The notes beneath the pieces were generated by a model that was given only the letters and a program-made list of their open reading frames with translations, did not search any database and had not been told where the DNA came from. Position numbers and translations under genes: made by a program. From contig QCGL01000008.1 of assembly GCA_003279935.1 (NCBI GenBank), forward strand, positions 1-64,000: 64,000 nt of DNA, given 5' to 3'. The DNA is from Prochlorococcus sp. AG-388-A04. Lineage in GTDB: Bacteria > Cyanobacteriota > Cyanobacteriia > PCC-6307 > Cyanobiaceae. Below, piece after piece: positions 28,183-55,751 of the stretch. Each line of letters opens with the position of its first letter. The stretch's first letter is position 1.

Positions 28183-30633
28183 ATGATTCATATAATTGGG
28201 GCTGGTCCTGCAGGCATATCACTCGCATATTATGCTTTCCGTAAAGGTATTAAGAAGATAACCTTATATGAAAAGACAAATTTTATTGGGGGCATGTCCA
28301 GATCTTGGAAGCATGATAATTTTATTTTAGATACTGGTCCTCATATTTTTCATACTAGTGATAATGAAATAGCTTCTGATTGGGAAACGATTGGTAAAGA
28401 TATTCTCGTTGCAGGAAGTTTCAATTCTTGCAATATTTTATCAAATTATCCTAATAAACTTTTTCATTATCCTTTGTCAATATCGACTTTAAAAAAGAAT
28501 CTTGATGAAAAAGAATTTAGAAAAATTGAGATAGAACTTCAAGTACTTAAAGAGATTGACAATTCAGGCACCGCTTCAAACTTTAAAAATTTTTTAGAAG
28601 CAAAAGTTGGAAAAACTCTTACAGAGATGTTTTTCACACACTACCCTCAAAAAGTTTGGGGTTTAAAAACTGATCAAATGCTTGCAGACTGGGCTCCTCA
28701 AAGGATTTCTTTAAGAGATAAAGATGCCAATTTTTATACTAAACCTTTTGTGGCTGTAGGGCTGAATGGCACTGGTTGTTTCTATGATCGAATAATTAAT
28801 TTATTAACTGAACAGTCAGACTTTAAAATATTATTTGGCAAAGATCTCACTGGAATTGATAAAAACGCTCACTTTATAGATAGGCTAGTTTTTAACAATG
28901 AAGAAAAAATCAAAGTCGGTAAAAATGATCATGTCTTTTCAACTATTCCAGCAACAAATCTAGCCAAAATATTTAGCTTAGATTTATCTTTAAAATTTAG
29001 AGGTGTAAGGTCGCAATATTTCTTCTTCAAAAATGACAGGATAATCCCAAAAGGTTATAACTGGGTTTATTGTAGCGACTCTAATGTCTCATTTAATAGA
29101 ATAACCGAACCTTCAACAATGACTCCTGGAGTCTCACCTAAAGGTTATTCTTTTGTTTGTGTGGAAACAACCTTTGGAGATAATTGGGAAAGAGAACTTA
29201 ATCAACCTAATTCAGAATTTATTGATTGGTTAACATTAAATCCAAAGTTTAATTCAAAAGGTTACATCAAAGAACTTAACACGCAGAATTTTGAAAGATA
29301 CGTATATCCAATACAAGACAAAGATTTTCGCTCATCCTTATCTAAATATAATTCTTTAATTTCACAATATAAAAACTTAAGTGTTCTTGGAACAGGAGGC
29401 GAATTTCATTACTCTGATATGCAAATAATTTTTAGAAAAAGTAAAACATTAATAGATAGTTATCTACAAAATTATTCAAATAAAGGAATATCTCCAATTC
29501 CCTTAATTAAGAATTTCGAGCAAGAGTATAAAAAGAATCATACAGATACTCATACAATTAAAAAAAACGAATCAAATTATTTAAAAACATCAAAATTACA
29601 TTCCATTTCAAATGTATTAATCCCCTTAATTGCTGAAATAGGCATAAACCATAATGGAGACCTTAATCTTGCAAAAAAAATGATGCTAGCAGCAAAAAAC
29701 GCAGGGGCTCATTTTGCAAAATTTCAATATTATAAAAAAGATTCCAGAGTTCAAAAAAATAATCTTACTGAATACTTGCATGAGACTGCAGATGGTACTG
29801 AAATGTCTCTTAATGATATTTTTGAAAGAGCAAGATTAAACAAATATAAATGTAAAGAATTAATTGAATATGGTAAAGAGATAAATATCCCAGTCTTTTT
29901 TACAGTTTTTGATATTGAATCTGCAGCCGAGATAAAAGAACTTAACCAAAAAATTGTGAAAGTTGCATCTATGGATTGCAATAATCTTAGGCTACACAAT
30001 GAGCTTAATTCTCTAAAATTTGAGAGTATTATTATATCTACAGGTATGAGCAATATATCTGAAATAAAAAGATCATTGTCAATTTATAAAAATAGAAAAG
30101 ATATTCTATTAATGAGTTGTCGCAGTTCATATCCTGCACGATTTGAAGATATAGATTTTGGCGAGATAAATTACTTAAAAAATGAAACAAACTGTATGGT
30201 AGGCTTCTCAGATCATACTGAGGGCGATTTAGCTAGTCTAATTTCAATAGCCTCTGGTGCTACCTTCATTGAAAGACACTTTACAACTAATAAGTTCTTG
30301 CCAGGACCAGATAATAGAATGTCCATAGATCATCAAGAGACCTTAGAGTTATCAAAAAAACTTCAAATAGTTGCCGAGTCTATGAGCAAAGAGCAAAAAA
30401 TTATCCATCCAAGTGAACAGACAACTTTTGCTATGCAAAAAAGATCACTAAGATTTCCAATCTCCAAGAAAAAAGGAGACACAATACACACAGATGAGTT
30501 GATTAGTGTAGCCCCTCCAGAAGGTTATAGTATTTTTCAAGCAACACTTCCCAGAACAAACTTGAGAGTAATCAAAGATGTAGTTGAAGGTGAGCCAGTG
30601 AACGAATTAAATGTAACTTTTAGGAGTGAATAA
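28183..30633 (+). CDS. Fusion of UDP-galactopyranose-mutase-like FAD protein and NeuB-type nonulosonate synthase
   Basis: An 816-aa fusion. Residues 1 to about 440 are an FAD protein: dinucleotide loop HIIGAGPAGISLAY, GGMSRSW, and DTGPHIFHT, as in UDP-galactopyranose mutase (HIFHT), ending in GTGGEFHYSDMQ. A linker of about 35 residues follows. From about 480 comes a NeuB fold (LIAEIGINHNGDLNLAKKM, then FAKFQYYKKDSR, GFSDHTEGDLASLISIASGA and IERHFTTNK), which condenses PEP with an N-acyl sugar. Residues from about 753 look like the C-terminal SAF (antifreeze-like) domain. No stop or frameshift separates the parts. The Rossmann-fold gene starts 2 nt after it. Confidence 0.88.
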   Translation: MIHIIGAGPAGISLAYYAFRKGIKKITLYEKTNFIGGMSRSWKHDNFILDTGPHIFHTSDNEIASDWETIGKDILVAGSFNSCNILSNYPNKLFHYPLSISTLKKNLDEKEFRKIEIELQVLKEIDNSGTASNFKNFLEAKVGKTLTEMFFTHYPQKVWGLKTDQMLADWAPQRISLRDKDANFYTKPFVAVGLNGTGCFYDRIINLLTEQSDFKILFGKDLTGIDKNAHFIDRLVFNNEEKIKVGKNDHVFSTIPATNLAKIFSLDLSLKFRGVRSQYFFFKNDRIIPKGYNWVYCSDSNVSFNRITEPSTMTPGVSPKGYSFVCVETTFGDNWERELNQPNSEFIDWLTLNPKFNSKGYIKELNTQNFERYVYPIQDKDFRSSLSKYNSLISQYKNLSVLGTGGEFHYSDMQIIFRKSKTLIDSYLQNYSNKGISPIPLIKNFEQEYKKNHTDTHTIKKNESNYLKTSKLHSISNVLIPLIAEIGINHNGDLNLAKKMMLAAKNAGAHFAKFQYYKKDSRVQKNNLTEYLHETADGTEMSLNDIFERARLNKYKCKELIEYGKEINIPVFFTVFDIESAAEIKELNQKIVKVASMDCNNLRLHNELNSLKFESIIISTGMSNISEIKRSLSIYKNRKDILLMSCRSSYPARFEDIDFGEINYLKNETNCMVGFSDHTEGDLASLISIASGATFIERHFTTNKFLPGPDNRMSIDHQETLELSKKLQIVAESMSKEQKIIHPSEQTTFAMQKRSLRFPISKKKGDTIHTDELISVAPPEGYSIFQATLPRTNLRVIKDVVEGEPVNELNVTFRSE

Positions 30634-30635
30634 AA

Positions 30636-31631
30636 ATGGAAAGGATAATCGTACTTTCAAATACAGTTGGAAGAAATTTTGATAAATCTGTTAAAACAAC
30701 TGCTATAAGGGAAATTGAAGGATTTGAAGTTGTTTCTTTATTAACATCAAATGAATGTGATTATGATAGTTTGGTCAAGAAAATAATTAAAACCTCTTCA
30801 CATTTATTTGTCGATCTTGAAAAAAAGCAACCTTTAAATATAACCAATCAATTTGATCAAAAGGGTAATTTATTTAATAGCATTTTTAATTCAATAAAAC
30901 AAAATAATCTCCAAAATAAGTTGAATTTATATCCAATAAAACTCAATGACATCACCGTTAATGCAACTTGGAAGCATCTCAATAGAATTTATCAAGATAT
31001 TTCCGGACTAAAAATAGGATTAATTGGAACAGGTAATATTGGTTCAAAATTGGTTAATACGCTAACTGAATCAGGAGTAAAGGTAAGATGTTTTAATAGA
31101 GATATTAATAAAGCAATATCAGTTGTAAATAATGTCATATTAACTAAGCCAGAGCAAGTAATAGTTTCTCCTGATGTTGTGAGATGTATTGAACATTCGA
31201 TAATCAACACTTCAGGTTTAATAATTTCTTGTAGTGATATCTCCGACGACCTTTCAGATTATATTTCTTTAATACATGGAGAATACAAAATTTTTTTAAT
31301 AGGTCATTCAATACTTAAAGAAAATGCCCTAAAAAAGTTCCAAGAGAAGAATATAGATGTTCAAAGAATTGATGTTGGGAAAGAACTACTTTCATTTATT
31401 ATTGGTACTTTGAAAACAAATAATTATGATGTCTTTGGTAAAAAAACCTTCAATGAATACGAAGTATGCTCGGGAGGTTTTATTGGAGAAAAAGATAATT
31501 TAATAGTTGATAACTACAAAGACCCTAAATGGTACATAGCTTCATCTAATGGGAAAGGAGGGGTAAATTACGAAAAAAATATTGGAGGGCTAAAAAGCCT
31601 TACTGAATTAGATGATTTATACAATGGATAA
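30636..31631 (+). CDS. NAD(P)-binding Rossmann protein of unknown function
   Basis: A 331-aa protein whose middle holds a clear dinucleotide-binding loop, GLKIGLIGTGNIGSKLVNTL (about residues 124-143), as in 2-hydroxyacid or shikimate-type dehydrogenases. The first 110 residues and the C-terminal 80 (FNEYEVCSGGFIGEKDN, SSNGKGGVNYEKNIGG) match no family I know. It follows the FAD-NeuB fusion by 2 nt and almost certainly shares its transcript. A redox step in making or modifying the same nonulosonate is likely, but inferred only from position. Confidence 0.65.
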   Translation: MERIIVLSNTVGRNFDKSVKTTAIREIEGFEVVSLLTSNECDYDSLVKKIIKTSSHLFVDLEKKQPLNITNQFDQKGNLFNSIFNSIKQNNLQNKLNLYPIKLNDITVNATWKHLNRIYQDISGLKIGLIGTGNIGSKLVNTLTESGVKVRCFNRDINKAISVVNNVILTKPEQVIVSPDVVRCIEHSIINTSGLIISCSDISDDLSDYISLIHGEYKIFLIGHSILKENALKKFQEKNIDVQRIDVGKELLSFIIGTLKTNNYDVFGKKTFNEYEVCSGGFIGEKDNLIVDNYKDPKWYIASSNGKGGVNYEKNIGGLKSLTELDDLYNG

Positions 31632-31648: not shown

Positions 31649-32344
31649 TTAAAATTTTTGTCTATATATTTGCGTTTCCGCAAACTCAAGATCCTGAGGA
31701 TAATCGATATCAACTATGTAACGATCGTCAGACACAAAGAAGCCAGTCTTATCATGCATATATGACTTGTATTTGAATAAAGAATTAATTGTCGCTATGT
31801 AAAAATTTCCACTGATAAAGTAAAAATCATCTTTAAATTCTTGTCTATTCGTAGCTCCCTTTGGGCCTTGAACTAAATATTTCCAGTCATTTGTTGATTC
31901 ACTTAACTGAATACATTCACAAGGATGCTCTTTCATTTTTGTAAGTGCTACAACAGACTCAAAATCTGAATTTTCAAAGAGTTTAATCCCATTTTTTATA
32001 TCATCTAAATCTCGAATAAGAAAAGTAGGCTGAAGTATTAGAAGAGAATTAAAAGAAGCTTTTTTACTATTAATAACTTCTGAAGCATGTAAAAGGGTAT
32101 CAATTATTCTAGATTTATCAGTAGCTAGTTTGTCAGGACGCAGAATATTATTAACTCCATGGATCTTCCCTCTTTCAAGAATATTCTTATCGTCACTAGT
32201 AATAAATATTTCCAATTCAAGAAGTTTTGCGAACTCTATTGTGTAATCAATTAAAGGTTTATTTTTAATTAGAATTAAGTTTTTATTAGGTATTCCTTTA
32301 GACCCCCCCCTTGCAGGAATGATTACAGCAATATTATTCATCAA
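31649..32344 (-). CDS. neuA: Acylneuraminate (nonulosonate) cytidylyltransferase
   Basis: It activates a nonulosonic acid as its CMP sugar. The 231-aa protein begins IAVIIPARGGSKGIPNKN, the family signature, and later has TSDD, LQPTFLIRDLDDI and DIDYPQDLEFAE, with the metal-binding aspartate in the last motif. It overlaps the upstream aminotransferase gene by 11 nt on the minus strand. It faces the FAD-NeuB fusion across a convergent 17-nt gap, so the two probably belong to one pathway. Confidence 0.92.
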   Translation of the reverse strand: MMNNIAVIIPARGGSKGIPNKNLILIKNKPLIDYTIEFAKLLELEIFITSDDKNILERGKIHGVNNILRPDKLATDKSRIIDTLLHASEVINSKKASFNSLLILQPTFLIRDLDDIKNGIKLFENSDFESVVALTKMKEHPCECIQLSESTNDWKYLVQGPKGATNRQEFKDDFYFISGNFYIATINSLFKYKSYMHDKTGFFVSDDRYIVDIDYPQDLEFAETQIYRQKF

Positions 32345-33476
32345 TTTTTAATATCTCAAAAATAGATTGAGCCAATTCCCGATAGTCATTGAGTGTATTT
32401 TTTACAAAAATTGGAATGGCTACTGATTTTTCCAAATACTCTAATGTTTTTTTGGAATGATGCACTTGAATATCATCAAGTGCATGACCCCAATATGCAG
32501 AACAGTGCCATTCCATAGCATCAGGAAGAATCTTTGTACCAAAGCCAAGTTCTCCAAGCTTGGAAATAACTCTTTCTCTTTTATCAATATTTTTAACTTT
32601 AAATATAAAAGTATCATAACTACCAGAATGAGACTCGAATTCCCCCCTAACATGAACTAATGATTCCAAAGAATCTTTTAGTATCATGTATCTTTGTTTA
32701 TTTTCTTCAACTAGTCCTTCTAACTTATCTAATTGAACACTCGCAATAGTTGCTTGCAGTTCTGTCATTCTATAGTTAAAACCTGGCATTACTCTGTTAT
32801 CGTGGCCTCTCTCTAGATTGGGATTATTTTCATGACCATGATCAATATATTGCTTTATATAAGTACCATATACATCATTATCAGTAAGTGTTAATCCTCC
32901 TTCGCCACAAGTAATCATTTTGGCGAAGTCAAAGCTAAAAATTCCAATATCACCAATAGTTCCATAATGTTTTCCATTTACTTTACCCCCAATTGCTTCA
33001 CATGCATCTTCTAGGAGGACAAGATTATTCTTTTTACAATAATCTTTCAACTCTAATATAGGACCTCCTAAACCAAGCATATGAACAGCTAGAACGGCCT
33101 TTGTTTTTTTAGTAACTTTTTGTTCAAGATCATTCATATCAAGGTGCAAATTTTCATCAACATTACAAATTATTGGTTTGGCTCCCACGTCTATTACGGC
33201 TTCAACACATGCAATAAAGTTAAATGCTTGAGTAATTACCTCATCTCCGGGCTTAACTCCTGCGGCCTTAAGCGCACATTTTATTGCAGCAGTACCTGAT
33301 GAGACAGCAGAACAATTAGTTGAATTGAAGTAGTCTTGACATTTAGTATTAAATTCACGAACATAAAAATGTTTTCTTTTATTCTCAAATGATCTGTGAA
33401 AAAGAACTCCTCCTTCCTCAAATATCTTTAAGGTAGCATTTTTTTCTTCTTCCCCAATGACTTCATAACCTGGCAT
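32334..33476 (-). CDS. DegT/DnrJ/EryC1-type aminotransferase
   Basis: A PLP-dependent sugar aminotransferase (380 aa) that would install an amine on a keto-sugar. The PLP lysine is K186 in SFDFAKMITCGEGG, the cofactor aspartate is D157 in LLEDACEAIGG, and the substrate loop SSGTAAIKCALK is intact. It overlaps neuA by 11 nt. In nonulosonate pathways such enzymes make the amino sugar precursor; a role elsewhere in the island is also possible. The start MPGYEVIGEEE is normal for the family. Confidence 0.92.
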   Translation of the reverse strand: MPGYEVIGEEEKNATLKIFEEGGVLFHRSFENKRKHFYVREFNTKCQDYFNSTNCSAVSSGTAAIKCALKAAGVKPGDEVITQAFNFIACVEAVIDVGAKPIICNVDENLHLDMNDLEQKVTKKTKAVLAVHMLGLGGPILELKDYCKKNNLVLLEDACEAIGGKVNGKHYGTIGDIGIFSFDFAKMITCGEGGLTLTDNDVYGTYIKQYIDHGHENNPNLERGHDNRVMPGFNYRMTELQATIASVQLDKLEGLVEENKQRYMILKDSLESLVHVRGEFESHSGSYDTFIFKVKNIDKRERVISKLGELGFGTKILPDAMEWHCSAYWGHALDDIQVHHSKKTLEYLEKSVAIPIFVKNTLNDYRELAQSIFEILKIDE

Positions 33477-48515: not shown

Positions 48516-49115
48516 TTAAATATCTGATTTTAAGTGAACATCTCTCAAATTAATTTTGAAAGTAGTCAAATAAGTACTTAATGAATTTTGAAATACAGTA
48601 GCAATATTCATTATTCTTACTGCACCATTCTGATCACCATTTTCATCAATTGATACTGTTTCGCGATAAACAGTATCATTTATTAATGCATGATGAGAAT
48701 AAATTTCATTTAGGATTTTTGTTGTTATGTCAGGAGAATTAGCTTGCAATGAAATTACGTAATTAGGAAGATAGCCTTCTTTTTCATAAAGATTTAAACA
48801 CGCATCTGATATAACCTCTTGCTTTGGGGCACTATCAGAGCCTAAGTAAGGTTTCCGAATCAAATACTCAATTTTATATTTTTCACAAATAGATGCATAT
48901 CTCAAAGAATCAACAGAGATTACGACTCTAGGATTTACTACCATATTTAGTGCAGCCTTGGCTGCCTTTATCATCATTGGTAATCCATATATTGGATATA
49001 TATTTTTATCTTTAAACCTTTTAGATCCTGATCTTGCTGGAATTACTACCAGAATATTTAATTTATCACTTTTAGATAAATATCTTACAATTTCAGGATC
49101 CCTTTTTGTATTCAT
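48516..49115 (-). CDS. neuA: Acylneuraminate cytidylyltransferase-like protein
   Basis: A 199-aa CMP-sugar synthetase with ILVVIPARSGSKRFKDKNIYPI at the N-terminus, the signature of the family, plus YVISLQANSPDITTKI and VVISVDSLRYASICEK. It is about 30 residues shorter than usual at the C-terminus, where the DxDxxxD-type last metal motif is not visible, so activity should be treated with caution. It lies 4 nt after the second NeuB gene on the minus strand. Confidence 0.78.
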   Translation of the reverse strand: MNTKRDPEIVRYLSKSDKLNILVVIPARSGSKRFKDKNIYPIYGLPMMIKAAKAALNMVVNPRVVISVDSLRYASICEKYKIEYLIRKPYLGSDSAPKQEVISDACLNLYEKEGYLPNYVISLQANSPDITTKILNEIYSHHALINDTVYRETVSIDENGDQNGAVRIMNIATVFQNSLSTYLTTFKINLRDVHLKSDI

Positions 49116-49119
49116 AAAT

Positions 49120-50082
49120 CTATTCTACTTTCTCCCAATTAAAAAAAGTACTCCCATCATTCCTAAAATTCCAATATCTTCCTTGGTAGTAATCTCTATT
49201 TAATAATTCAGTATCGCTAAGCTCTCTTAGAGGATCTCCTAAGAGATCATTAACTTCTATATTTTTAGACTCTAGGTATGCAAGTTGTTCTGAATTACTT
49301 GTTTTAAATAAATAAGATAATTCCTTGAATTGATCTGGGTTAGTAGATACTGGCCCATCCTTAGTTTTATCTTTTGGGAGAATAGTAAAATGTTTTTCAA
49401 TAACATTGGCACCCAATAAACTCGATGCCGCAGGAATAATGTTAAAACAATCTTCTGGATTTGAATGGTCGCTTACTCCAACACAACTTGTAAGTTTTGA
49501 TAAGTATCCGATTCTGGACAAATGTGACTCTTTTAAAGGAGTAGGATATATTGAAACACAATGAAGTAAAGCTGGATCAGGATGCTTATTTAGGATTTTA
49601 GATGCCTTCTCTATTTCTCTTCTATAAGAGCATCCTGTAGAAATAATTAGCGTATCAATTTTTGATGTGGCTAACTTTTCAATAAAAGGAGTACTTATAC
49701 AATCAAAACTTGAAAGTTTTATATTTTTGTAACCCATTGCCAATACTTCTTCAATATTATCAATTGTAAATAAAGTAATCATTGGCTTAACTTTGTATTT
49801 CCTACATAAATCTAGAAATATTGAGTAAGCCTTATTATCGAGATCTAGTTTAGATAATCTTTCATATTCGTCATTAAAAGGTCTTTTAATGACTTTAATT
49901 CTTCCACCTTCAACCAATCCAGAATCGAATCTACCTCTCTTAGAAAGACTTTTTGAGAATACATACTGCATTTTAACAAAATCAGCCCCTGCATCTGATG
50001 CTGCCGATACAAGTTCATCCAGCAAACTTTGTTCACCATTATGATTTTGGCAAAGTTCTGCAATAACTGACTTTTTCTCCAT
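49120..50082 (-). CDS. neuB: NeuB-type nonulosonate synthase (second copy)
   Basis: A 320-aa NeuB-fold protein starting MEKKSVIAELCQNHNGEQSL, the diagnostic N-terminal motif, with KMQYVFSKSLSKRG, GVSDHSNPED, NVIEKHFTILPKDKTKDGPV and NPDQFKEL. Unlike the fusion it is a stand-alone domain and the SAF domain appears absent or reduced, as it ends at about residue 320. A GGAGG ribosome site lies about nine bases before its ATG. It heads the operon neuB-neuA-unknown. Confidence 0.9.
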   Translation of the reverse strand: MEKKSVIAELCQNHNGEQSLLDELVSAASDAGADFVKMQYVFSKSLSKRGRFDSGLVEGGRIKVIKRPFNDEYERLSKLDLDNKAYSIFLDLCRKYKVKPMITLFTIDNIEEVLAMGYKNIKLSSFDCISTPFIEKLATSKIDTLIISTGCSYRREIEKASKILNKHPDPALLHCVSIYPTPLKESHLSRIGYLSKLTSCVGVSDHSNPEDCFNIIPAASSLLGANVIEKHFTILPKDKTKDGPVSTNPDQFKELSYLFKTSNSEQLAYLESKNIEVNDLLGDPLRELSDTELLNRDYYQGRYWNFRNDGSTFFNWEKVE

Positions 50083-50262
50083 TCTAAATTAACCTCCAAT
50101 GATGAATATCTAAAAAATTAATATACAACTTTTATGAATTCTTCAGGAACTAAATTATAAGAATTTATCATATTAAAATATCATTCTCAATATGTTAAAC
50201 ATAATAATGTACTATTTACATAAACAAAATTTAATTGTGTATTGATTTTTAAAATAAAAAAT

Positions 50263-51399
50263 TTATAAAAATTTTTGAGCTTTTAAAAAATTACATAAAT
50301 CTAATTCGCCTTGAATTGAAACATTGGTATTAGTTAAAGATTGATATATGCTTTGATAATCATTATTTATAAATTCATCAATTTCATAGATTAATTCTTT
50401 TATCATTTGGTTAGGATCAAGTGATTTACAAAAATTATTTGACTTTGCGAATTCTATATTCCAAGCTATTTCAGGATTATCAGTCTCTTTAATTAATAAT
50501 GCTGGGATTTTGTAAGCAATTACCTCTGACAATGTATTACATCCCCCTCTTGCTACTACTAGATCAGAATTTAACATAGTTTTATGCATTTCTTTTAAAC
50601 CTGATACAGGAATCATATTTGTACTTTCTACTACAGTAGTTTTAGCTCTTTCGGACAAACTATCAATTCCGACAAAGAAGCGAAACCTTTCTGATTTGAT
50701 TAATTCTGGTAAGGCTTTCTCTATAAGATTACTAAGCGTATTAGTTCCATTATCCATTAGTAAACATTTATATTGACTTCTACCATCATTATTTTCTAAC
50801 AAAGAATTATTTGATTTATTTTGAAGTATTAATCCAATACGATGAATGTTCTTATCTGGGAAAAAGCCAATATTTTTAGATGGAGTCAAATATCCAAAAA
50901 CATAATGATCAAATTTTGAGTATAAATCCAAGAAAATTTTAGATTCTTCAGGTTGATTCTCTATCATATTTATCCAGAACCAGTCCCAAGTAAAATGGGA
51001 TAAATTTATGATTATTGCATTACTAATATTTTTTGCAAGAGAAAGTTGGGGTATAGAATCTCCAATTAAAATATCATGAGAAAATGCATTTAATAATTTT
51101 GCTTTCTTTAGCCAATCAAGAATACCGAAATTAGCGATATTAATAAAATGTTCATTTGTAAGATTAACGTCAAGGCCTCCAGAATCAGTTTTAAATGTTC
51201 TAATTAAATTATTTAGATAATGATATTTAATTGAATTTCCTAGTCGGCTTTTTATTAGAGAAAGTCGTACGCCAGAATAAATATGAATTTCTACATTATG
51301 GAATGTCTCAAGAATATTTCTTATAATAGTTATCTGTCTTACTGCATGTCCGTAACCTTCATCAGCAATAAATACCCCAATAGAAATAATACTTTTCAT
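50263..51399 (-). CDS. GT-B glycosyltransferase (GT28/MurG-like)
   Basis: A 378-aa GT-B fold. The N-terminal half has the GYGHAVRQI motif that resembles the acceptor loop of MurG/PseG-type enzymes, and a hydrophobic NISNAIIINLSHFTWDWFW. The C-terminal half has VVARGGCNTLSEVIAYKIPAL, the GGxxT/SEV donor-binding signature, followed by PEIAWNIEFAKSNN. It would transfer a sugar from a nucleotide donor, or hydrolyse a UDP-sugar as PseG does. Lying upstream of neuB2, it may act in the same pathway. Confidence 0.75.
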   Translation of the reverse strand: MKSIISIGVFIADEGYGHAVRQITIIRNILETFHNVEIHIYSGVRLSLIKSRLGNSIKYHYLNNLIRTFKTDSGGLDVNLTNEHFINIANFGILDWLKKAKLLNAFSHDILIGDSIPQLSLAKNISNAIIINLSHFTWDWFWINMIENQPEESKIFLDLYSKFDHYVFGYLTPSKNIGFFPDKNIHRIGLILQNKSNNSLLENNDGRSQYKCLLMDNGTNTLSNLIEKALPELIKSERFRFFVGIDSLSERAKTTVVESTNMIPVSGLKEMHKTMLNSDLVVARGGCNTLSEVIAYKIPALLIKETDNPEIAWNIEFAKSNNFCKSLDPNQMIKELIYEIDEFINNDYQSIYQSLTNTNVSIQGELDLCNFLKAQKFL

Positions 51400-54680: not shown

Positions 54681-55751
54681 CTATCTATTTAACCAAACCT
54701 TCATCCCTGAATCAGTGATTTCATTCCTTTCAAGATCTGAGAATAATAATCCATCATTGAATAATTTATATCTATGAATCAACTCTTTTACTATTTCTAC
54801 ACTTAAAAGAGGTTTTTTCCCTATTGCTGTTTCTGCTGCCAATACTATTCCTGCAGCACCCATTTCTATTGTCCCTACAATATCATTTAACTCTGCTCTA
54901 GTGGGTAAATCACCTGTAATTAAACTTTCAAAGATATTTGTAGCTACAAAACAAGGTTTATCATAAGAATTAGCAACTTTTATTATTCCTCTCTGTGCGA
55001 ATGGTATGTCTAAAATATTAATCTCTCTTGTTAAATCTCCTCTATCTATAAGCAAAGAATCTGTAACTTGGCAAATACTATGCAAATTATGAATACTTGA
55101 TTTACTTTCAATTTTGCTAATAACTTTTACATTTGGAGAGATTTCTTTTACTTTTAAAATTGCTTCTTTAGATTTACAAAAAGAGATAAAAACATTTGAA
55201 ATGCCTAATTCATTTATCATTTTTAAAGATTGAATATCCTTTGTTGTAAAGTCTGGCAATTGAATATCTTTATTTAATACATCGACGCCTTTATTATTAC
55301 CAACTATTCCTGAAGTCATACATTTACATACAAGGTAATCACCATTATTTTCTTCAACTTTTACAGTAACACCATTAAAGTCTAGTCTTATAAGCGAATC
55401 AACTTTTAATTGATTGATTATATTCAAAGGATATAAAGCTAATTTTGAAGAATTTGTGTCTTTAACTGTATTTGAAATTTTAAACAGTTCTCCCTTTTTA
55501 AATGAAATATAATTTCCTGATTTCAATAATGTTCTAATTTGAGCTCCCTCAGTATCTAGCCCTATTGTAATGTTATTAGCCCTTCCGATTTTTGAATATT
55601 TAATAAGATCATCCAATGAAGAATGAGACATATTTACTCTAAAAATATTAACCCCTGCATTTTTTAGACTAATAAAATGATCTTTCGAATTGCAACTTGG
55701 TCCTATTGTTGCAACTATTGTAATTTCTTTGTTTGTGCTTTTAATATCCAT
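54681..55751 (-). CDS. Pyruvate kinase lacking the C-terminal domain
   Basis: A 356-aa protein with the A and B domains of pyruvate kinase and no C-terminal regulatory domain (normal length about 470 aa). Catalytic positions match by order and spacing: R38, N40, S42 (NIFRVNMSHS), D66-T67 (LDTEGAQIR), K213 and E215 (KIES), D239 (RGDLTREI) and T271 (ATNIFESL); the K to D distance of 26 equals that in E. coli PykF. PTRAELND is conserved. The canonical DTKG is DTEG. It is alone on the minus strand between glycan genes and divergent from the LIC12162-like gene. Confidence 0.85.
   Translation of the reverse strand: MDIKSTNKEITIVATIGPSCNSKDHFISLKNAGVNIFRVNMSHSSLDDLIKYSKIGRANNITIGLDTEGAQIRTLLKSGNYISFKKGELFKISNTVKDTNSSKLALYPLNIINQLKVDSLIRLDFNGVTVKVEENNGDYLVCKCMTSGIVGNNKGVDVLNKDIQLPDFTTKDIQSLKMINELGISNVFISFCKSKEAILKVKEISPNVKVISKIESKSSIHNLHSICQVTDSLLIDRGDLTREINILDIPFAQRGIIKVANSYDKPCFVATNIFESLITGDLPTRAELNDIVGTIEMGAAGIVLAAETAIGKKPLLSVEIVKELIHRYKLFNDGLLFSDLERNEITDSGMKVWLNR

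Follow-up and report, generated by a model that had tools for sequence, protein, structure and literature searches.

Synthases of the NeuB, PseI and LegI type (PF03102) take an open-chain sugar as acceptor, which in the known pathways is freed by a hydrolysing epimerase or a PseG-type hydrolase; SpsE of Bacillus subtilis is a NeuB-type synthase. Previous work showed that the reduced flavin of UDP-galactopyranose mutase (UGM; Glf, PF03275) forms a covalent FAD-sugar iminium through N5 of the flavin adenine dinucleotide (FAD), with opening of the sugar ring (excerpt of PMC7662398). Here we describe a gene that joins these two families in one predicted protein, located at positions 28183-30633 (+) in a 64,000-nucleotide stretch of Prochlorococcus sp. 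AG-388-A04 (contig QCGL01000008.1, positions 1 to 64,000; hereafter the window), together with an adjoining gene for a putative dehydrogenase (the partner). The fusion and its partner point to a new way of making a sugar acid. The legionaminic acid pathway of B. subtilis (sps; SpsM-C-D-G-E-F) resembles this locus in having a putative cytidylyltransferase, SpsF, and further sugar enzymes; it differs in its separate SpsG step, and the excerpt of its description makes no mention of a flavin domain (PMC7439481). A search of the open literature, outside which lay most subscription papers and all preprints, found no description of such a fusion, and a word search of a study on nonulosonic clusters in Vibrionaceae gave no match for fusion, fused, bifunctional or flavin (PMC7371886).

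Architecture of the fusion gene

The fusion gene is divided into the following parts.

28183-30633, + strand: fusion open reading frame (ORF), ATG start, 816 amino acids (aa), no internal stop
28183..29472, + strand: UGM-like FAD half, aa 1-430; motifs GxGxxG, GPHIFHT, YPQKVWG, FNRITE, YPI and GEFHYSDMQ
29473..29604, + strand: linker, aa 431-474; mostly low model confidence, fastest-evolving part
29605..30396, + strand: NeuB-type synthase barrel, dependent on phosphoenolpyruvate (PEP), aa 475-738; conserved Glu, Lys, Gln, Tyr, Ser-Asp-His and Glu-x-His site
30415..30630, + strand: C-terminal tail, aa 745-816; aligned to the antifreeze-like domain of NeuB, Arg314 equivalent replaced

As claimed in a preliminary description of this DNA, the 816-codon frame is uninterrupted and contains a UGM-like FAD fold, which is recognised by a GLF match over cut-off, by the HIFHT motif (aa 54-58) and by the UGM residues that it keeps. 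According to Pfam, two known families are joined in one protein: NeuB (PF03102) matches aa 501-738 with 200.8 bits (cut-off 22.1), and in the FAD half Amino_oxidase scores 41.5 bits (cut-off 19.8), GLF, the UGM domain (PF03275), scores 37.3 bits (cut-off 26.3), and NAD_binding_8 is over its cut-off at aa 4-62. According to the NCBIfam equivalog cut-offs, the fusion is neither a sialic acid synthase (N-acetylneuraminate synthase TIGR03569, 234.2 of 399.65 bits), a pseudaminic acid synthase (TIGR03586, 185.6 of 340.25 bits), a UGM (TIGR00031, 65.3 of 303.75 bits) nor a PRK07208 protein (NF005547, 141.9 bits under a cut-off of 380, the highest that the FAD half reaches in NCBIfam).

The predicted structure of the fusion, with a mean predicted local distance difference test (pLDDT) of 76 and a predicted template modelling score (pTM) of 0.55, has as its top Foldseek matches 4ipj for the NeuB part (E 1.4e-23) and 4dsg_A for the UGM part (E 4.6e-23); parts of the tail are at low confidence. 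Measured from D412 to E485, the linker has 73 residues in the window, and its length is 73-77 residues in four of the 24 fusions compared below and 54-59 in the other 20.

Distribution of the fusion

Full-length matches to the fusion occur in three of 266 genomes of the genus, including that of the window; G183 and G190 also belong to this genus. At the family level, eight of 400 genomes match a profile of the FAD half at E<=3.1e-101, all in frames of 795-835 aa and all confirmed to hold both halves, and the next match (1.8e-46) lies in a 510-aa frame. In the order of one SAR11 genome (the SAR11 order), eight of 397 genomes carry the fusion in frames of 792-820 aa; the weaker FAD relatives there have E>=9.0e-42 and frames of 372-544 aa, the best one (9.0e-42) being 470 aa long. 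These weaker relatives (510 and 470 aa) hold no fusion, because their frames are too short for both halves. Family and order together gave 16 FAD matches at E<=4.5e-91 in frames of 792-835 aa, 15 of which were checked for NeuB; the remaining one, G976 of the SAR11 order, was judged a fusion by frame length only, and the other seven genomes of that order are among the 22 loci described next.

A collection with one genome per species (84,980 species) was scanned with motif patterns of the FAD half, and 36 pattern matches led to 22 loci, a lower bound because the patterns were exact. Thirteen belong to Pelagibacteraceae (SAR11) and four to Prochlorococcus, with one each in Synechococcaceae, SAR116, a further alphaproteobacterium, Elusimicrobia and a contig assigned by binning, perhaps wrongly, to Nitrososphaerales. 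Together with the window and the genomes G551 and G666 they make up a set of 25 loci, in which five of the 22 belong to the family sample. In all 25 loci, found via FAD-half or full-length profiles, a NeuB (recognised with two NeuB reference sequences) stands behind the FAD half. Both halves share a single frame in 24 of them (790-822 aa; the start of L080 is cut by the contig end), and these 24 fusions are 28 to 85% identical in pairs. A homologue of the same architecture in another genome (L064) has 71% identity. In the remaining locus, an alphaproteobacterial contig (L088:5354-7748), the fusion is split into frames of 157 and 630 aa, for which decay and sequencing error are not distinguishable; it was left out of residue counts and trees.

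The fusion is rare and patchily distributed over distant, mostly marine lineages. A scan of viral contigs with the FAD-half motifs found no relative, and phage and plasmid records had no place covering 80% of the fusion, the matches listed being NeuB-only or FAD-only (for plasmids, the best 20 of 203). No unfused member of the fusion's FAD clade appeared in the scans of the family, the species collection and the SAR11 order.

The window genome is a 41-contig draft, and the long frame might in principle be an assembly fusion or a frameshift artefact. No evidence for such an artefact was found, and it was rejected as vanishingly improbable, since the fusion recurs at 25 loci from several phyla, and G551 and G666, which carry two of these loci, are single-contig genomes (99% complete). 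The preliminary description would have been refuted by homologues all encoded as two separate genes; the close homologues found proved instead to be fused, apart from L088, where two frames keep the same order. Between the window and G728, the amino-acid-changing differences are 0.20 per site in the FAD half and 0.13 in the NeuB half, with silent sites saturated. The conserved two-gene module of fusion and partner is almost certainly real.

The NeuB half

The NeuB half resembles the NeuB, PseI and LegI synthases in its barrel, its core PEP and metal site and, by alignment, its antifreeze-like tail, as well as in its cytidylyltransferase neighbours; it differs in standing behind an FAD domain, in scoring under the NCBIfam NeuB and PseI cut-offs and in lacking a tail arginine that is essential in the enzyme of Neisseria meningitidis. 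Among the site residues listed for Neisseria meningitidis (Nm) NeuB (excerpt of PMC6795526), the equivalents of E25, Q55, F112, K129, Y186, S213, H215 and E234 are kept in all 24 fusions. The T110 position is Thr in 22 and Ser in two, and the E134 position is Asp in 24/24 fusions and in 10 of 41 unfused controls. Equivalents of K53 and H236, which we take to be site positions as well, are also present in 24/24. At the N184 position all 24 fusions have Ser, which says little because Asn occurs in only one of the 41 controls; N74 and F288 lie outside the mapping. The 41 controls are matches over 230 residues, taken from 33 of 34 control loci together with eight NeuBs from fusion loci, and they exclude L006, the window's second NeuB and the fusion of NeuB and cytidylyltransferase (NeuB-CTP) of L069.

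Previous study showed that the R314A variant of Nm NeuB is inactive, and R314 is thought to position the N-acetyl group of N-acetylmannosamine (Joseph 2013, via an excerpt of PMC6795526). The equivalent residue is Arg in none of the 24 fusions (Gly in 15, Ala in five, Ser in two, Pro in two) versus 35 of the 41 unfused NeuBs. The other six controls have Lys (four), Ser (one) and Cys (one), and four of these six are NeuB-CTP fusions with doubtful tail alignment. Correspondingly, the tail motif reads VAPPEG in the window and KGPAGG in another fusion, and mostly KRPGxG in unfused NeuBs. Since this tail arginine is missing, the fusion is unlikely to be an N-acetylneuraminate synthase of the ordinary kind, and the normal N-acylhexosamine acceptor is not to be assumed. 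The NeuB had been described as complete, which is right for the core site residues but calls for a caveat at the Arg314 equivalent. On this residue pattern, the NeuB half is likely an active PEP-dependent synthase with altered acceptor recognition, and its residue signature, as aligned, is consistent across the fusions and separates them from known synthases. In the tree of the NeuB half, one origin of the fusions is weakly supported (72/25; 68% of bootstraps).

The FAD half

The FAD half shares with UGM the FAD fold, the GPHIFHT loop and its best matches to solved structures, the first 25 profile matches all being UGMs (E 9.6e-25 to 4.4e-8). According to the active-site residues and roles given for Klebsiella pneumoniae (Kp) UGM in Table 3 of PMC3624792, the equivalents of H60, Y155, W160, R280, Y314 and Y349 are invariant in 24/24 fusions, and that of R174 is Arg in 18 of them; N84 and N270 lie outside the mapping. 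Differences from UGM are the attached NeuB, the TIGR00031 score under cut-off and changes at R343 and Y185. FAD motifs and NeuB site, whose conservation the preliminary description had left to be checked, are largely kept in both halves across the fusions.

The cyanobacterial PRK07208-type FAD proteins give the FAD half its best NCBIfam score, but the fusion is far below their cut-off. For comparison, 21 unfused relatives, all cyanobacterial, were chosen from the FAD-profile matches; three of them were scanned against NCBIfam, and all three are PRK07208 proteins over cut-off. In these 21 relatives the second His of H-x-x-H is Tyr or Phe and the Asp of Y-x-D is Asn, R343 is kept, and the R174 position is Leu or Met. 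In the tree of the FAD half, where several long branches meet, the fusions lie on one side of a branch and the 21 unfused relatives on the other, with a support of 100/100. Five of the unfused relatives (L090, L095, L096, L097 and L102) have frames of 636-640 aa, about 130-150 residues longer than most others, and the extra C-terminal stretch of L090 resembles, by eye, a membrane protein.

From these residues, UGM-type flavin chemistry on a nucleotide sugar has a slightly better than even chance of being what the FAD half performs. The UGM-type H-x-x-H and Y-x-D motifs, partly missing in the unfused relatives, would also suit a mutase that converts pyranose to furanose, acting on the NeuB product or its nucleotide form, or on a nucleoside diphosphate sugar before NeuB, with the fusion serving for channelling only. 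We regard such a mutase as improbable, because the residues contacting the diphosphate are kept, whereas ulosonates activated with cytidine monophosphate (CMP) have one phosphate, and because five of the 25 loci have no cytidylyltransferase in the surveyed span.

The partner dehydrogenase

The gene that follows the fusion in the window is the partner.

30636..31631, + strand: partner dehydrogenase, 331 aa; two-domain, binding nicotinamide adenine dinucleotide or its phosphate (NAD(P)); motifs GTGNIGSK and VDLEKK

The TAA stop of the fusion is followed by two bases and then by the ATG of the partner, in agreement with the Rossmann protein that had been placed 2 nt downstream. Its designation as an orphan, however, was mistaken: in 23 of the 25 loci it is the same-strand neighbour of the fusion and thus a near-constant partner, upstream in some loci and downstream in others, the spacing ranging between an overlap of 14 nt and a gap of 57 nt (22 loci measured). 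In L088 it precedes the first FAD fragment. The two exceptions are L071, without a partner within its 13 kb, and L080, the upstream side of which is off the contig. In 400 family genomes, likely the same draw as for the FAD-half profile, a profile of the 23 partners scored >=299 bits in exactly the eight fusion genomes, and 31 bits in the next best.

The model of the partner (pLDDT 90, pTM 0.84) has the fold of a two-domain NAD(P)-binding dehydrogenase, an architecture shared with dipicolinate synthase A, PylD, and shikimate and amino-acid dehydrogenases. Dipicolinate synthase A is closest in fold (3d4o; Z 16.2, 149 residues, root-mean-square deviation (rmsd) 4.4); leucine dehydrogenase (7vid) gave Z 15.3 over 232 residues with an rmsd of 4.5, and several other families are near Z 15. 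The query-normalised TM-scores are low, being <=0.43 among the matches listed (shikimate dehydrogenase 2hk7). At E<=0.001, NCBIfam dipicolinate synthase A was matched by 16/23 partners and PylD by 10/23 (best E for PylD 3.3e-10), and Pfam gave NAD-binding domains only, with Shikimate_DH in 7/8 members at E<=0.001; the window partner scored 23.7 of 381 bits against the NCBIfam glutamyl-tRNA reductase. The partner differs from these dehydrogenases in its own invariant residues R25, D60, E62 and K64, which together with glycines 131, 133 and 281 are found in 23/23, and its sequence matches to solved structures are mainly to the NAD(P)-binding part. Because of its likeness to PylD and dipicolinate synthase, our guess is that the partner's target might be an oxo-acid, at its keto, amino or imine group.

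Neighbouring genes

Two further genes lie next to the module in the window.

31649..32344, - strand: cytidylyltransferase (CTP_transf_3); also accompanies the fusion in G728
32334..33476, - strand: DegT-type aminotransferase; also accompanies the fusion in G728

The set common to the window and G728 consists of fusion, partner, cytidylyltransferase and aminotransferase, with 71-76% identity. Neighbours were surveyed up to about 6 kb per side for most loci and in a 22-kb piece for the window, and labelled by best BLAST matches to a small reference set, with example domain types checked in Pfam. Of the 25 loci, 20 have a cytidylyltransferase, 13 an aminotransferase (HemL-like of class III, or DegT) and 13 a short-chain dehydrogenase/reductase (SDR). 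G666 has other CTP_transf_3 genes elsewhere in its genome.

The aminotransferases and SDRs, together with the near-constant NAD(P)-type partner, favour the possibility that the FAD half catalyses a genuine redox reaction, oxidising or desaturating the sugar or the ulosonate; the partner would then perform the opposite or the next redox step, so that between them a stereocentre is set or a keto group created for transamination. This would also agree with the Amino_oxidase score, which is above both its cut-off and GLF, and with the fold that the FAD half has in common with protoporphyrinogen oxidases (Foldseek). The uniform UGM matches among solved structures and the retention of most UGM contacts to the nucleotide sugar count against it, and we consider it unlikely, if still worth keeping in view. 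The new FAD- and NAD-dependent route envisaged in the preliminary description is plausible. A redox step by FAD is possible but not implied: most of the residues conserved are shared with UGM, in which the reduced flavin is a nucleophile without net redox.

The fusion is the sole NeuB found in the genomes G551, G666 and G728. The varying linker length would agree with two halves that catalyse unrelated steps of one glycan pathway and are fused for co-expression only. This seems quite unlikely to us, as the scans made found no unfused copy of the fusion's FAD clade, and the fusion is the only NeuB in the single-contig genomes G551 and G666.

Further genes of related type were observed. In the same cluster, the window holds a second sugar-acid set at 48516-51399 (-), consisting by Pfam of a 320-aa NeuB, a short cytidylyltransferase of 199 aa and a protein of 378 aa whose C-terminal domain is GT28. 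At 54681-55751 (-), a 356-aa protein has only a pyruvate kinase barrel (PF00224, 202 bits, aa 8-318) and sits in a glycan cluster with two NeuB proteins, which are PEP users. In L070, L072, L079 and L089, a fusion of NeuB and cytidylyltransferase (580-590 aa) stands beside the FAD-NeuB fusion and partner, and in each of them the next gene encodes a radical SAM/SPASM protein of 443-460 aa. In G183, the gene immediately upstream of the fusion (L028:11255-13531, -) encodes a 758-aa protein with CBS, NeuB and xylose-isomerase-like (AP_endonuc_2) parts, and several other frames of 600-780 aa in the genus match NeuB.

Epimerases and hydrolases

Epimerase_2 was found over cut-off in 7/25 fusion genomes (2/8 cyanobacterial and 5/17 others) versus 13/20 control genomes, which were hand-picked from the window's genus, have unfused NeuB only and are >=92% complete. 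In 10 of these 13 controls it lies within 0.9 kb of the NeuB match. The single Epimerase_2 among the 25 fusion loci (L074) has a separate NeuB next to it and is parted from the fusion by a further gene; this in-locus check used one query sequence and may have missed distant epimerases, and the genome-wide match positions agree with it. The lower frequency is in line with an FAD half that replaces the epimerase, and is suggestive only.

PseG (TIGR03590) was over its strict cut-off in 0/8 cyanobacterial fusion genomes, in a search that was over cut-off in only 2/14 controls. Weak PseG matches occur in 6/8 of these fusion genomes, and the two best (G673:C7 and G646:C5) are near unfused NeuBs on contigs other than that of the fusion.

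Proposed pathway

NeuB needs an open sugar and UGM chemistry opens the sugar ring, so a UGM-type domain could do the epimerase's job. We infer every chemical step below; the observations themselves comprise the conserved fusion, its partner and neighbouring genes, and the residue patterns. As the best explanation, we propose a bifunctional enzyme of an unnamed ulosonic-acid pathway, to which we give a probability of roughly 0.4. A nucleotide sugar would be bound in the UGM-type site of the FAD half, the nucleotide would be displaced by N5 of the reduced flavin, and the sugar would open as a flavin iminium. The opened sugar would pass to the NeuB half and condense with PEP to give an ulosonic acid, the FAD half thus standing in for NeuC/LegG, the hydrolysing epimerase by which the sugar is normally made available to NeuB. 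The partner dehydrogenase would then modify the product or its amine or keto form, an aminotransferase or SDR, where present, would decorate it, and the cytidylyltransferase would activate it as a CMP sugar for a surface glycan. Taken separately, direct feeding of NeuB by the FAD half in place of the epimerase is a tentative idea with the odds somewhat against it, and that the aminotransferases fit an amination step after condensation, of the kind known for Kdo8N, is a guess.

Several observations weigh against this pathway. In the FAD half, Amino_oxidase outscores GLF in Pfam, and the unnamed PRK07208 family is closer than UGM in NCBIfam. The equivalent of Kp R343, a residue that touches the FAD pyrophosphate (excerpt of PMC3624792), is replaced by Thr, Ala, Ser or Cys in 24/24 fusions, that of Y185 is Phe in 24/24, and that of R174 is not Arg in 6/24. 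With a pTM of 0.55, the arrangement of the domains is not fixed by the model. Four loci (L065, L080, L085 and L087) show neither cytidylyltransferase nor aminotransferase in the surveyed span, so the product is perhaps not always a CMP sugar, or the genes lie elsewhere. Five of the eight cyanobacterial fusion genomes also hold unfused NeuBs, one or two each. Finally, many fusion genomes are incomplete, which weakens the epimerase count: cyanobacterial fusion genomes that are >=92% complete have Epimerase_2 in 2/5, a share that does not clearly fall short of that in the controls, and with the limit loosened to E<=0.001 it appears in 4/8 and 7/17 fusion genomes.

Implications

Annotation by NeuB alone would label this module as sialic acid synthesis. 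Its two halves come from a family like the covalent flavin mutases and from the PEP-dependent sugar-acid synthases, and this combination predicts a pathway and perhaps a sugar; it also raises the question of whether ulosonic acids can be made with flavin N5-sugar chemistry in place of a hydrolysing epimerase. Cells of SAR11 and Prochlorococcus rank with the most abundant in the ocean, and surface sugars matter to their encounters with phages and grazers. If an N5-sugar iminium fed the formation of a carbon-carbon bond with PEP within one protein, then, with a partner resembling PylD and dipicolinate synthase, some cells of SAR11 and of Prochlorococcus might display at their surface a new class of ulosonic acid, possibly without the usual N-acyl group at C2 or cyclised via an imine, an outcome that we regard as rather unlikely but that the module would allow.

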